Source: Persicimonas caeni | GTDB taxonomy: Bacteria > Myxococcota_A > Bradymonadia > Bradymonadales > Bradymonadaceae | DNA: 64,000 bases | Direction: 5' to 3' | Assembly (NCBI RefSeq): GCF_006517175.1 | Contig: NZ_CP041186.1 | Span: 868,001 to 932,000 of the forward strand | Shown: positions 2,612 through 51,133 of the stretch, one piece after another | Position numbering within the stretch: position 1 is the first letter of the stretch | Layout: each line of letters opens with the position of its first letter | Notes under the pieces: generated by a model | Database searches by the model: none | Seen by the model: the letters and a program-made list of their open reading frames with translations, nothing else | What the model was told of the DNA's origin: nothing | Position numbers and translations under genes: made by a program

Positions 2612-2656
2612 ACGCGAACTTTCGATGCAGGCTGAACAGCTCAGCCCGATGTAGGC

Positions 2657-3013
2657 TTAGCCCAGAGCTTCTCGCGCCGTCTCCACGACCTTGGTAAAGC
2701 CCTTGGGGTCAAAGACGGCCATGTCGGCCAGAACCTTGCGGTCCAGCTCGACGCCGGCTTTGTTCAGCCCACCCATCAGCTTGCTGTAGCTCATGCCGTT
2801 CTGGCGTGCGGCCGCGTTGATACGCGTGATCCACAGGCGACGGAACTGGCGCTTGCGCTGACGGCGGTCACGGTAAGCGTAGGCCCACGCACGGTGGACG
2901 GTCTCTTTGGCGTTTTTGTACAGACGACGCCGACCACCGTAGTAGCCTTTAGCGGCCTTCAAGATCTTCTTGCGGCGGCGGCGTGCTTTGGTTCCTCGTT
3001 TGACGCGCGGCAT
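2657..3013 (-). CDS. rplT: 50S ribosomal protein L20
   Basis: This 118-residue basic protein begins [18 protein letters not shown], the classic L20 N-terminal tail that threads into 23S rRNA. The body carries [20 protein letters not shown] and the C-terminal globular part ends in ETAREALG. Length and sequence match the family end to end. L20 is an early assembly protein of the large subunit and in several bacteria represses its own operon. It lies 18 bases downstream of rpmI in the same operon. No infC is present upstream, although infC-rpmI-rplT is the usual order. Confidence 0.98.
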
Positions 3014-3031
3014 TAGGGCACCTCGTTAAAA

Positions 3032-3229
3032 TTACTTGTAGGGCAGCAGTTGCTTGATGCGCTTGGCGTCGGCCTTGGTCAGGTAGCCGTCTTTGCGCAG
3101 GTGGCGCTTACGCTTGCTGCTCTTGTGGGTCAGAATGTGGTTGCGAAAGCCTTTGCGATACTTGACCTTTCCACTCTTGGTCACTTTGAATCGCTTAGCG
3201 GCGCCGCGATGTGTCTTCATTTTCGGCAT
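3032..3229 (-). CDS. rpmI: 50S ribosomal protein L35
   Basis: This 65-residue, strongly basic protein starts [17 protein letters not shown] and contains [10 protein letters not shown], the family signature. A good Shine-Dalgarno (AGAGAGGAAGC just before the ATG at 3229) supports the start. L35 is a small component of the 50S subunit. It is the first gene of the rpmI-rplT-pheS-pheT run here; translation initiation factor infC, normally directly upstream, is replaced by a desaturase gene facing the same way, so rpmI needs its own promoter. Confidence 0.98.
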
Positions 3230-3340
3230 AGCTTCCTCTCTTTGCTGGGCGACCGGAGCCGCCCATCTATCTCAATCTCATGCGACTAACGAGCGTCGTA
3301 GCACAATCGTTCCCGGACCGGGACCGAAAACGGGTGAGAG

Positions 3341-3369
3341 TGACTACCGGATTGACTCGAAAATATCAA
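3341..3369 (-). promoter_or_regulatory. Candidate promoter for rpmI-rplT-pheST
   Basis: On the minus strand TTGATA (3369-3364) is separated by 17 bases from TAGTCA (3346-3341), inside a locally AT-rich patch (about 3355-3385) in otherwise GC-rich DNA. Transcription starting just downstream would give a leader of about 105 bases before rpmI. The leader contains a short TCCCGG/CCGGGA hairpin. The -10 element is a weak match, so this is a suggestion only. Confidence 0.35.
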
Positions 3370-3404
3370 ATGCTTTTTTATTTGTGCCTCTCCAGCCCCC
3401 GACA

Positions 3405-4496
3405 CTACCCGTTTGGCCGGCCAAAGCGCTTGAGCGTGCGGTAGTGGGAACGCACCGCCTCCGAGAAGGTCTCGTGGACATTGTAGGGGACGTCGAACTC
3501 GCGCGCCGTGCGCTCGACGATGGGTGCGATCGCCGGGTAGTGCACGCTGCAGACGCGCGGAAACAGATGGTGCTCGATCTGGAAGTTCAACCCGCCGATA
3601 TACCAGTTCAGGAACTTGTTATCGCGCGCGAAGTTCGCGGTGGTGCGCATCTGGTGGATCAGCCAATGCTCTGCGATCTCGTCGTCCGCGTTCGGCTCGG
3701 GGTGCTCGGTCTCCTCGACGACATGGGCGAGTTGGAAGATCACGCCCAAGATCAGCCCTGCAGTGAGGTGTACGGTCAGAAAACCGATCAAGAATTGCCA
3801 CCAGGCCAAGTCGAGGACCAGCAGCGGCACCGCGATGGTGTAGCCGTAGTAGACGAGTTTGGTGACCACCAAAATCACCCACTCGCTCGCCGGATGGCTC
3901 TTGTCTTTATACGGCCCCAGGTCGCGCTGCAGGAAGTACTTGTAATCCTTGACGAAGACCCAAAAGAAGGTGGCCAGGCTGTAGGCGGCGAAGGCCAACA
4001 CGTGTTGGACGCGGTGGATCCAGTGATGGTCGGTGTGCGGTGACAAACGAATGAACGGAGCGACCTCCAGATCTTCGTCGTGACCGTGAATATTGGTGTA
4101 GGTGTGGTGGATCACATTGTGAGTGATCTTCCAGATATAGCCGTTCGCCCCGAGCAGATCGAAGCTCAAGCCGAGCCATCGATTGACGGCCTTGTTCGAC
4201 GAATAGGCCCCGTGCAACGCGTCATGGGAGATCGAAAAGCCGATGCCCGCCATCCCCACGCCCATCACGAAGCACATCGCCCACATCGCCCACAGCGGAA
4301 GTAGGCCACTGATAATTAAGCCGTAGGAACCAAAGTAGAGCCCGAACAGCACAAGCGTCTTCACGATCATCGCGCCATTGGCATGTTTCGACATGCCCCG
4401 CTCCTTAAAATAGGTGTCGACGCGTGTTTTGACCGCCGTGGCGAAGTCGCGATTGTCTCGATTGTCGAAGGTGACCTTCTGTGAGCTGGAGCTCAT
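3405..4496 (-). CDS. Membrane fatty-acid (acyl-lipid/acyl-CoA) desaturase
   Basis: This 363-residue integral membrane protein has the three histidine boxes of the non-heme di-iron desaturases: HDALH (91-95), HNVIHH (126-131) and QIEHHLFP (near 308). Hydrophobic segments lie at about 45-90 and 195-245. The QIEHH third box, where Q replaces the first His, is typical of front-end and linoleoyl-CoA-type desaturases. It inserts a double bond into membrane acyl chains using O2 and an electron donor; no cytochrome b5 domain is fused. Substrate and regiospecificity cannot be read from sequence. It is monocistronic, with a palindrome-rich upstream region. Confidence 0.9.
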   Translation of the reverse strand: MSSSSQKVTFDNRDNRDFATAVKTRVDTYFKERGMSKHANGAMIVKTLVLFGLYFGSYGLIISGLLPLWAMWAMCFVMGVGMAGIGFSISHDALHGAYSSNKAVNRWLGLSFDLLGANGYIWKITHNVIHHTYTNIHGHDEDLEVAPFIRLSPHTDHHWIHRVQHVLAFAAYSLATFFWVFVKDYKYFLQRDLGPYKDKSHPASEWVILVVTKLVYYGYTIAVPLLVLDLAWWQFLIGFLTVHLTAGLILGVIFQLAHVVEETEHPEPNADDEIAEHWLIHQMRTTANFARDNKFLNWYIGGLNFQIEHHLFPRVCSVHYPAIAPIVERTAREFDVPYNVHETFSEAVRSHYRTLKRFGRPNG

Positions 4497-7700: not shown

Positions 7701-8255
7701 ATGGGTTTTGGCAAATCGTGCGGTCGCGCAGCAACTCTCATCGCCCTGATGCTGGCCGTAAGCTTGGCGTTTGCCTGCGAAGAGTCCGAGACGAAGAAGG
7801 ACGAGCAGGCGACCGACCCGAATATGCCCCCGGCACAGGTCGACCTGCCTTCGCCTCCGCCGGCCTCGGCGTTCAATATCCCCGAGAAGAACGACGACGG
7901 CACGCTTCGCGTCGAGGGGATCATTCAATACAAAGACAAGCACCTGGAGAATCGGGTGCGCGTCAAAGGGGTCGTCACCCAGATTCTGGGTGACTGCGAC
8001 CCCAAGAAGGCCAAGAAGACCGGCGAGCCTTGCCCGCAACCTCACTACATCATCCAAGATGAAGAGGGAGCGGAAAAGGAGCTCATGGTCGTCGGTTTCG
8101 ACCGCGAGTTCTTCGAGAAGGCGAAGACCAAAGTCGGCGAGACGCATACCTTCGAGGGCACTTACAAACAGATGGCCCAGCAGTTCGTAAACTCCGAGAA
8201 CGGACTCTTGCTGCTCGACAAGATCGGCGAGGTCAGCGTGCTTGAAGAGAAGTAA
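7701..8255 (+). CDS. Putative lipoprotein with a small beta-barrel-like domain
   Basis: This 184-residue protein has a lipoprotein signal: a positive N-terminus, a hydrophobic stretch (ATLIALMLAVSL) and lipobox AFAC with Cys near 26. After a Pro-rich spacer (about 27-60) comes a domain with alternating strands (RVEGIIQY...RVRVKGVVTQIL...HYIIQDEEG...MVVGFD). This pattern resembles OB-fold domains found in bacterial lipoproteins. I do not recognise a named family. It lies 43 bases after the helicase and ends just before a strong bidirectional terminator. The signal type is well supported; the function is unknown. Confidence 0.75.
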   Translation: MGFGKSCGRAATLIALMLAVSLAFACEESETKKDEQATDPNMPPAQVDLPSPPPASAFNIPEKNDDGTLRVEGIIQYKDKHLENRVRVKGVVTQILGDCDPKKAKKTGEPCPQPHYIIQDEEGAEKELMVVGFDREFFEKAKTKVGETHTFEGTYKQMAQQFVNSENGLLLLDKIGEVSVLEEK

Positions 8256-8490
8256 GAGAGCGAAAGAGCGAAAGAGCAAAGAAGCTAAAGAGCAAAGAAG
8301 CGAAAGAGCAAAGAAGCTAAAGAGCAAAAAAGAGGAGCGGGCGCCCAGCTGGGTCGCCCGCTTCTCTTTTACTTCTTTACTCTTTTACTTTTTCGCTCTT
8401 TTACTTCTTTACTCTTTTACTTCTTCGCTCTTTTACTTCTTCACTCTTTTACTTTTTCGCTCTTTTATTTCTTCACTGTTACTCTCCCGC
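8256..8490. repeat. Purine/pyrimidine quasi-palindrome of short repeats
   Basis: The left half (8256-8331) repeats variants of AAAGAGCAAAGAAGC on the plus strand. The right half (8364-8480) repeats TTTTACTTCTTTACTC and TTTTTCGCTC, roughly the reverse complement, around a central GC-rich hairpin. The whole forms a long imperfect inverted repeat between two convergent genes. Similar TTTACTTCTTTACTC units recur at about 52480-52520. Confidence 0.8.
8332..8366. terminator. Bidirectional rho-independent terminator
   Basis: GAGGAGCGGGCG (8332-8343) pairs with CGCCCGCTTCTC (8355-8366), a 12-bp stem with one G-T pair and an 11-base loop that can itself pair (CCCAG/CTGGG). TTTT follows on the plus strand and TTTTTT on the minus strand. 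It serves the lipoprotein gene from the left and the methyltransferase gene from the right. Confidence 0.9.
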
Positions 8491-44758: not shown

Positions 44759-44794
44759 GTTCGAGGGTTGGATTCTTGTAGGCCATGGGTGATG

Positions 44795-44969
44795 GCCTTG
44801 CAGGTGCGCAACGCCTGCTATTAGGGGCGAGGCCTGAACGACTGCCTCGCGTAACTACAATTTGAGGGTCGTTTCAATCACCACAAGAGCCGCATCGAAA
44901 CGACTCCCTAATTGTTGTTCCGCGCGCAGTTCCGCGCCCCTAATAGCTGGCGTCACCCTCCTGCAAGGC
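44795..44969. repeat. Structured intergenic palindromic element A (glmM-pdxJ)
   Basis: Nested inverted repeats: outer GCCTTGCAGG (44795-44804) with CCTGCAAGGC (44960-44969); second GCTATTAGGGGCG (44817-44829) with CGCCCCTAATAGC (44935-44947), 13 bp perfect; inner GTCGTTTC (44868-44875) with GAAACGAC (44897-44904). A side hairpin GCGAGGC/GCCTCGC (44827-44833, 44844-44850) competes with the second stem. The same plan appears in element B near 50.1 kb. It may be a MITE-like element or a structured RNA; no coding capacity. Confidence 0.7.
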
Positions 44970-45001
44970 GCCCAACGAAGCCATCACTCAGGAGCTCTAC
45001 G

Positions 45002-45769
45002 ATGTCCAGCAATCGCCCAAGACTCGGCGTCAACGTCGACCACGTCGCCACCATTCGTCAGGCGCGTGGCACCCACTACCCCGACCCGGTCGCCGCCGCC
45101 TCCATCGCGGAGCTCGCCGGCGCCGACCAGATCACCATTCACCTGCGTGAAGACCGGCGCCACATCCAAGACCGCGACGTCGAGGTGTTGCGCCACACGG
45201 TCGAGACGCGGCTGAACCTCGAGATGGCCGCCACCGAGGAGATGCTCGAGATCGCCTGCCGCATCCGCCCCGACATGGTCACCCTGGTGCCCGAAAAGCG
45301 CGAAGAGCAGACCACCGAAGGTGGCCTGGCCGTCGTCGAAAACCGCGAGCGCCTCGCCGAGTACTGCGAGCGCCTGCGTGAATCCGGCGCCTACCTGAGC
45401 CTGTTCATCGACCCGGACCTCGCCCAGATCGAAGCCAGCGCCGAGCTCGGCGCCGAAATCGTCGAGCTGCACACCGGCGACTACTGCGAAGCCGCCAGCG
45501 AGTTCACCAACAAGCTCACCCCCGCCGAATTCGACCGCGACGCCGAGCTCCAGAAGCTCGTCGACGGCGCCAAACGCGCCGCCGAGCTCGACCTCGTCGT
45601 CGCCGCCGGCCACGGCCTCGACTACAAAAACGTCCTCGACGTCGCCGCCATCCCCGAATTCGAGGAGTTCAACATCGGCCACTCCATCGTCGGCCGCGCC
45701 GTCCTGGTAGGCTTCGAACGCGCCGTCCGTGAAATGATCGACGCGCTCGCTCTGGGCCGAAACGGTTGA
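45002..45769 (+). CDS. pdxJ: Pyridoxine 5'-phosphate synthase
   Basis: 255 residues from ATG 45002 (CAGGAG precedes). Family motifs: [17 protein letters not shown], the [17 protein letters not shown] strand-loop, [25 protein letters not shown] and [11 protein letters not shown], with [12 protein letters not shown] at the end. It forms pyridoxine 5'-phosphate from 1-deoxyxylulose-5-phosphate and 3-amino-2-oxopropyl phosphate in the DXP-dependent B6 pathway. It follows element A. In many Proteobacteria acpS comes next; here a tandem repeat and then nnr do. Confidence 0.97.
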
Positions 45770-45840
45770 GACCAGCGATATGTTCACCACGGAGGACACG
45801 GGGAGCACGGGGAAAGGCCTCTCTTCTTCTTGCTCCTCCG

Positions 45841-46101
45841 TGGCGACCATCACGCATCGAACCCTCACAGCAAAGCACAGCCTTTGCCTTTCTCCGTGCC
45901 CCCCGTGCCCCCTGTGGTGAACCCCTATGGCGACCATCACGCTTAGAACACTCACAGCAAAACACAGCCTTTGCCTTTCTCCGTGCCCCCCGTGCCCCCT
46001 GTGGTGAACCCCTATGGCGACCATCACGCTTAGAACACTCACAGCAAAACACAGCCTTTGCCTTTCTCCGTGCCCCCCGTGCCCCCTGTGGTGAACCCTT
46101 A
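45841..46101. repeat. 87-bp tandem repeat, three copies, between pdxJ and nnr
   Basis: Units start at 45841, 45928 and 46015 (each TGGCGACCATCACGC...). The second and third are nearly identical; the first differs at several bases. Just upstream (45780-45820) lies TTCACCACGGAGGACACGG, the reverse complement of the unit's end (CCGTG...GTGGTGAA), so the array is bounded by inverted sequence. The 345-base gap 45770-46114 holds nothing else except the nnr ribosome site. Because 87 is a multiple of three, the array stays open in several frames and gives spurious ORFs. Confidence 0.92.
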
Positions 46102-50046: not shown

Positions 50047-50277
50047 GCTTGTGTGGTCGTCCACCGATGGCCTTGCCGAAAAGTAGCGCCATCTAAATGG
50101 GGCGCGCTGGACAACGCGCGATAAGGACATGAGGGCTGCGAATTGCGGCGCCCAGCTTGTTGTGAGCAGCGCCACTCAGGCCACGGCGACCCGAACTCGC
50201 GAACATGCAACCCCTATGTCCTTAACGCCCGCTGTTCAGGGCGCCCCATCTAGCGGGCGTTGCTTCTCTGCAAGGCC
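50047..50277. repeat. Structured intergenic palindromic element B
   Basis: Outer stem GGCCTTGC (50069-50076) with GCAAGGCC (50270-50277). Second stem around ATGGGGCGC (50097-50105) with GCGCCCCAT (50241-50249), extending to CTA/TAG with one mismatch. Inner stem TAAGGACAT (50122-50130) with ATGTCCTTA (50216-50224). The plan matches element A. The 5' flank GCTTGTGTGGTCGTC (50047-50061) recurs exactly in element C. It fills most of the gap between the fused lipoprotein/barrel gene and the membrane protein at 50304. Confidence 0.75.
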
Positions 50278-50303
50278 TCCAGTGTTGCCCGACCGCGGTC
50301 CTC

Positions 50304-51058: not shown

Positions 51059-51133
51059 GCTTGTGTGGTCGTCTAGCGACAGCCTTGCAGGACAGTAGCG
51101 CCACCTAAATGGGGCGCTACTCCTCGGCAAGGC
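51059..51133. repeat. Palindromic element C (short form)
   Basis: Outer GCCTTGC (51082-51088) with GCAAGGC (51127-51133); inner AGTAGCGCC (51094-51102) with GGCGCTACT (51113-51121). Its 5' flank GCTTGTGTGGTCGTC (51059-51073) and the core AGTAGCGCC-A-CTAAATGGGGCGC are shared with element B, so C looks like B with its centre deleted. It sits just after the stop of the outer-membrane protein gene (minus strand). Confidence 0.75.

Follow-up and report, generated by a model that had tools for sequence, protein, structure and literature searches.

A dispersed family of modular palindromes, with Y1 transposase genes among its copies, in Persicimonas caeni

Transposition of the IS200/IS605 elements involves cleavage at a specific target beside a hairpin and a single-stranded circle as intermediate. 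The Y1 transposases have been laid out in classes, of which class 2, TnpA_REP, carries the motif Y---NP (PMC6006769); RAYTs were defined in PMC2817692; and REP dimers, heterodimers and TIRtrons are described in Di Nocera 2013 (PMC3733652). Our literature search found no report of REPs in Myxococcota, nor of repeats or transposases in Persicimonas. Here we analyse a palindromic element between glmM and pdxJ of Persicimonas caeni, which lies in a 64,000-nucleotide stretch of contig NZ_CP041186.1 (positions 868,001 to 932,000; hereafter the window, from whose first letter positions are counted unless marked as genome positions). The family to which it belongs resembles the REPINs, or REP dimers with a RAYT (REPtrons), in that inverted palindrome dimers occur in many intergenic copies, are specific to the genome and have a single-copy Y1 gene among them.

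The palindrome between glmM and pdxJ

The element begins 36 bp past the glmM stop codon and ends 32 bp ahead of the pdxJ start codon at 45002; Pfam assigns PGM_PMM domains to the glmM-like protein and also confirms PdxJ. An earlier sequence-only reading had described three nested perfect inverted repeats enclosing a possible competing hairpin, and all of these are present: a 10 bp repeat, GCCTTGCAGG (44795-44804 / 44960-44969); a 13 bp repeat, GCTATTAGGGGCG (44817-44829) with CGCCCCTAATAGC (44935-44947); and an 8 bp repeat, GTCGTTTC (44868-44875) with GAAACGAC (44897-44904). When mismatches are allowed, they join into outer arms at 44795-44832 / 44932-44969 (84%) and inner arms at 44848-44878 / 44894-44924 (81%). 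The competing hairpin, GCGAGGC (44827-44833) with GCCTCGC (44844-44850), and the long stem both make use of the GCG in GGGGCG (44824-44829). Folding energy over the 175 nt is -55.6 kcal/mol for DNA, against -26.4 for shuffled sequences (z -10.1), and -92.6 kcal/mol for RNA (z -9.4), with none of 200 shuffles as good in either case. The modules of this copy, and the two other family members of the window, are given in Table 1.

Table 1. Palindromic elements of the window and modules of the glmM-pdxJ copy
Feature	Position	Strand	Remarks
A-type palindromic element, 175 bp	44795..44969	+	inverted repeats; fold z -10.1; 94 own-genome BLAST matches
Left foot, GATG	44791..44794	+	G at -4 in 93% of 101 distinct family arms
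Left head, consensus GCCTTGCaGnnnAGyarCGCCnnCTA	44795..44820	+	
Left side hairpin, GCGAGGC / GCCTCGC	44827..44850	+	the competing hairpin
Core stem and loop	44851..44924	+	AACTACAATTTGAGGGTCGTT resembles repeats flanking the transposase gene at genome 668084-668494
Right side hairpin	44922..44937	-	in this copy GCGCG / CGCGC
Right head	44944..44969	-	imperfect inverted copy of left head
Right foot	44970..44973	-	GGGC on the minus strand
B-type element, same family, 207 bp	50070..50276	-	96 own-genome BLAST matches
Short 52-bp form	51082..51133	+	two inverted heads, almost no spacer

Repeats of other kinds also occur in the window. Between pdxJ and a YjeF-like gene (45782-46100) there are repeated units with GTTCACCACGGAGGACACGGGG and CCGTGCCCCCCGTGCCCCCTGTGGTGAAC, and positions 8248-8472 hold a purine-rich inverted repeat with 85-nt arms that are 81% complementary.

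Comparison of 18 pdxJ loci, 17 of them from relatives, bears on the history of this copy. In 14 of the 17, glmM is adjacent to pdxJ at gaps of 3-273 bp (below 100 bp in 11 of the 14), and the remaining three fetched loci are without glmM; the gap in the present genome is about 245 bp. Since the relatives keep the two genes adjacent, mostly with small gaps and without the palindrome, the comparison indicates that the glmM-pdxJ copy is an insertion and no conserved leader. If the copy affects transcripts of glmM or pdxJ at all, it would do so secondarily.

A dispersed family built from modules

Family elements are dispersed over the whole 8.05 Mb chromosome. BLAST of 44780-44995 against the own genome gave 94 matches (E up to 10) and of 50062-50284 gave 96, counts that take in both strands of one palindrome, and the matches go well beyond the copy near 50.1 kb; none of 38 relatives had a match. 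The likeness to the 50.1-kb element on which the earlier reading had remarked holds at both ends, but the core differs. The head pattern has 193 hits in the genome, against 14 for a reversed control, and its exact form occurs three times in 84,980 species genomes (a set from which the own genome's record may be left out), once each in the unrelated taxa Psychrobacter, Pseudomonas and Caballeronia. Among the BLAST matches and pattern hits listed, merging leaves at least 120 sites, of which weak pattern-only ones may be chance, and the 116 loci fetched contain 62 paired palindromes, a few of them chance. Arrays occur, with periods near 239, 260 and 267.

Gene context was taken from a codon-usage gene caller made for this analysis, with paired site L078 and sites of about 100 nt or less left out. 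All but one of the 57 paired sites longer than 100 nt are intergenic (codirectional 42, convergent 8, divergent 6), and the one scored as intragenic is probably a chance pair. Elements between codirectional genes are nearer the upstream 3' end in 28 of 43 cases (medians 44 and 142 bp). Of the A and B elements, 31 in number, 19 have codirectional genes on their two sides; 11 of these point with the genes and 8 against them. The A-type elements, in the orientation chosen, stand 14 on the plus and 2 on the minus strand of the chromosome, and no consistent orientation pattern by replichore was seen for the family (dnaA at 3.30 Mb; sparse skew). No pair of empty and occupied sites gave exact ends; five near-identical copies, which share flanks, proved to have been carried by larger duplications. 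One further copy (locus L045, about 2640-3965) is split into parts some 1.3 kb apart, apparently via an insertion.

Both arms of an element open with the 26-nt head of Table 1, next to a foot of consensus GNNS with T at -3 in 18% of the 101 arms. The bodies that follow the head vary: A (the glmM-pdxJ copy), B (50.1 kb), C (GCAATTAAGGACATAGGGG), D (TATTGAAGG) and E (GGGGCTAAGGCC), and one head is thus combined with several different cores. In A and B a side hairpin stands between head and core. Its stems pair in 335 of 349 cells over 70 arms of 35 elements, a value reached by none of 1000 stem shuffles (mean 224, maximum 262), though each of the four stem types is inherited as a group, so that the pairing counts few independent changes. 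The loop is of a similar TGAAC type in all four side-stem sequences, and the left stem differs from the right one in 33 of the 35 elements.

Transposase genes among the copies and competing explanations

PF01797 has 29 matches in the genome, 26 of them over the cut-off. The full-length Y1 genes number six, and three of these (P0001, P0002 and P0003) are each flanked by the gene's own repeat family. Two 207-nt direct repeats, 96% identical, enclose P0001 (genome 4646506-4646991), and each consists of a right arm, a spacer and a left arm. At P0002 (6666507-6666926) a right half-element begins exactly at the stop codon and is followed by a full D-type element, and the upstream side holds, in order, a D-like element, an IS110-type gene and a right head. 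P0003 (668084-668494) sits between 126-nt palindromes that are 94% alike, whose core recurs in A-type elements (up to 23/23 nt) and has 105 matches in the genome. The remaining three full-length Y1 genes showed no tie to the palindromes, no set of near-identical gene copies of P0001-P0003 was seen, and such palindromes were not found near the closest P0001 relatives in two other genomes (G014, G019).

The three proteins, of 137-162 aa, match PF01797 or the IS200 model NF033573, on which P0003 scores 62.7, P0001 47.4 and P0002 49.1 bits (equivalog cut-off 55); identity to P0001 is 47% for P0002 and 51% for P0003. The catalytic Y---Q reads YIAHQ in P0001, YVAKQ in P0002 and YVVHQ in P0003; P0001 extends it to Y---Q--HH, and the other two keep one of the two final histidines. 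The HUH position is NHTH in all three and DHTH in a relative (L162), the hydrophobic middle residue being absent. In addition, P0002 matches four solved transposase sequences, including 2xm3 (TnpA, E 9.4e-5) and the ISHp608 transposase 2a6m.

The genome also contains about twenty more Y1_Tnp genes with long frames (roughly 260-520 aa; for example at 5587048, 323451 and 3855666), which belong to another group. One Y1 gene, at genome 1381418 (locus L067, 3241-4340), has an A element close by and was considered as the family's transposase and rejected: its own flanks carry a different repeat, and the adjacency to the A element is therefore taken as chance. This gene lies near CCCATGTGGTTGATGCGGATCAA, after which comes CCCCGGG.

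The earlier preference for a mobile or dispersed repeat is thus borne out by the many own-genome copies, the absence from all 38 relatives and the transposase genes among the copies. Our analysis suggests, with a probability of roughly 0.72, that these are non-autonomous mobile palindromes of the broad REPIN or TIR-dimer kind, served by IS200-like Y1 (HUH) transposases. The palindrome would fold in single-stranded DNA, such as the lagging-strand template; a Y1 transposase would recognise the folded arm with its foot, and by cutting and rejoining would copy or move the unit to other intergenic places. The element ends given in Table 1 are putative. Counting against this explanation are the ties of three of the six Y1 genes only, the lack of exact ends, the absence of such palindromes near the closest P0001 relatives in other genomes, the lack of covariation in the B elements, and a Y---Q--HH subclass that is published, in the part of PMC6006769 concerned with it, without REPs. 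A tentative extension, which we hold to be possible but not probable, is a modular hierarchy in which one outer head stands over several core families, each core with its own Y---Q transposase, and the differences between side-hairpin stems give polarity; two or more transposases might then act on a composite element. The loop of the A elements lies one way relative to the arms in 7 copies and the other way in 6 (n=13), as if inner and outer modules turned independently.

The sequence-only reading had also raised a cis-regulatory RNA, that is, a switch or attenuator in the pdxJ 5' leader in which B6 synthesis would depend on the partner with which GGGGCG pairs. Such a role would fit the closeness to pdxJ, the strong RNA fold and the competing local hairpin, but the palindrome is missing from relatives with glmM beside pdxJ, its copies lie beside many other genes in mixed orientation, and Rfam gave no match in the whole window nor in four element-rich loci. 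Its copies have also been compared for compensatory changes. An alignment of 22 B copies from chosen loci (about 200-222 nt; copy 474298 without clear orientation) pairs in 86.4% of cells as a four-way structure, against 35-50% when slid, and in 82.9% as a straight palindrome; its covariation score, 0.064, lies below the shuffled 0.075, and 485 of 500 shuffles score as high. High pairing with covariation not above shuffles indicates that the B arms are conserved as sequence, and covariation of the RNA type was not seen in this alignment. For 13 of the 16 A copies (the other three, which have core duplications, were set aside), the RNAalifold covariation term is +1.34, which is positive and so unfavourable, with double changes in 8 of 42 pairs. 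The local hairpin is a recurrent module of the family; it therefore has the look of a fixed element within a branched fold and is no evidence for two-state switching. We consider a regulatory RNA for pdxJ highly improbable. It is somewhat easier to suppose, but still unlikely, that the repeat, whatever first moved it, has since been retained for a function in the chromosome or in transcripts, such as that of a 3' mRNA stabiliser, terminator or protein-binding site. The intergenic placement and the bias towards upstream 3' ends agree with this; however, the junctions occupied resemble all gene junctions in the same loci (tandem 281, convergent 72, divergent 67), no T-run follows the hairpin of the glmM-pdxJ copy, and the heads are joined to several different cores.

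Mobility could alternatively have come from another transposase, the palindromes being MITE-like derivatives of, for instance, the IS110-type element found at some of them. In two loci (L143, around 4231-4260; L116, genome 4744416-4744466) IS110-type ends do directly adjoin the head, both times at CTATT, as though it served as a target. This looks like IS110 using the palindrome as target, however, and the IS110 ends are unlike the element ends; element halves stand directly at Y1 genes and none at IS110, so that we regard this origin as quite improbable, about on a par with the regulatory RNA. Integron attC sites with gene cassettes would likewise be imperfect palindromes with constant ends, some of them arrayed, but the copies are scattered over the whole chromosome and none of seven integron integrase matches in the genome is over the model cut-off, which rules this identity out for practical purposes.

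Comparison with known systems

Mobile palindromes served by Y1 transposases, our preferred explanation, can be set beside several described systems. The IS200/IS605 TnpA proteins share with P0001-P0003 the Y1 domain, the Y---Q motif and the short length, and the IS200 equivalog cut-off divides the three, with one above it and two below; unlike the IS200/IS605 TnpA proteins, the present ones have NHTH at the HUH position and were not seen as a set of near-identical gene copies. IS200/IS605 elements and their MITE or PATE derivatives, as far as these have been described, have small subterminal hairpins, whereas the palindromes here are long. Subclass 1.2 of TnpA_Y1 (PMC6006769) is similar in the Y---Q--HH of P0001 and in its single and divergent genes; in the passages of that paper that treat it, the subclass is reported without REPs and mostly from Cyanobacteria and Bacteroidetes, and P0002 and P0003 retain one of the two final histidines.

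TIRtrons, with their TIRYT transposases, are alike in having long inverted repeats at the transposase gene that recur elsewhere as dimers and clusters, and heterodimers are known among REP dimers too (both in PMC3733652). The published TIRYTs are mostly of subclass 2.1 with an HTH tail, in the description given by PMC6006769, in contrast to the short Y---Q proteins found here, and many published TIRs share GGGGWSAS (PMC3733652). As in REPINs, two inverted repeats form a unit that is dispersed and intergenic (62 paired sites, a few of them chance; 56 of 57 intergenic). Unlike REPs, the palindromes measure about 130-220 bp and contain nested modules, and the system is not a classical REP/RAYT one because its motif is Y---Q in place of the Y---NP of RAYTs (as given in PMC6006769) and its foot GNNS in place of GT[AG]G.

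The present case would extend REP-like palindrome expansion to IS200-like Y---Q transposases in a Bradymonadales lineage, and its composite palindromes form a natural collection in which to ask which part a Y1 transposase recognises, be it the head, the foot, the side hairpin or the core. The palindrome system would work like a REPIN/REPtron or TIRtron, but it is a variant, in which two defining RAYT features are replaced.
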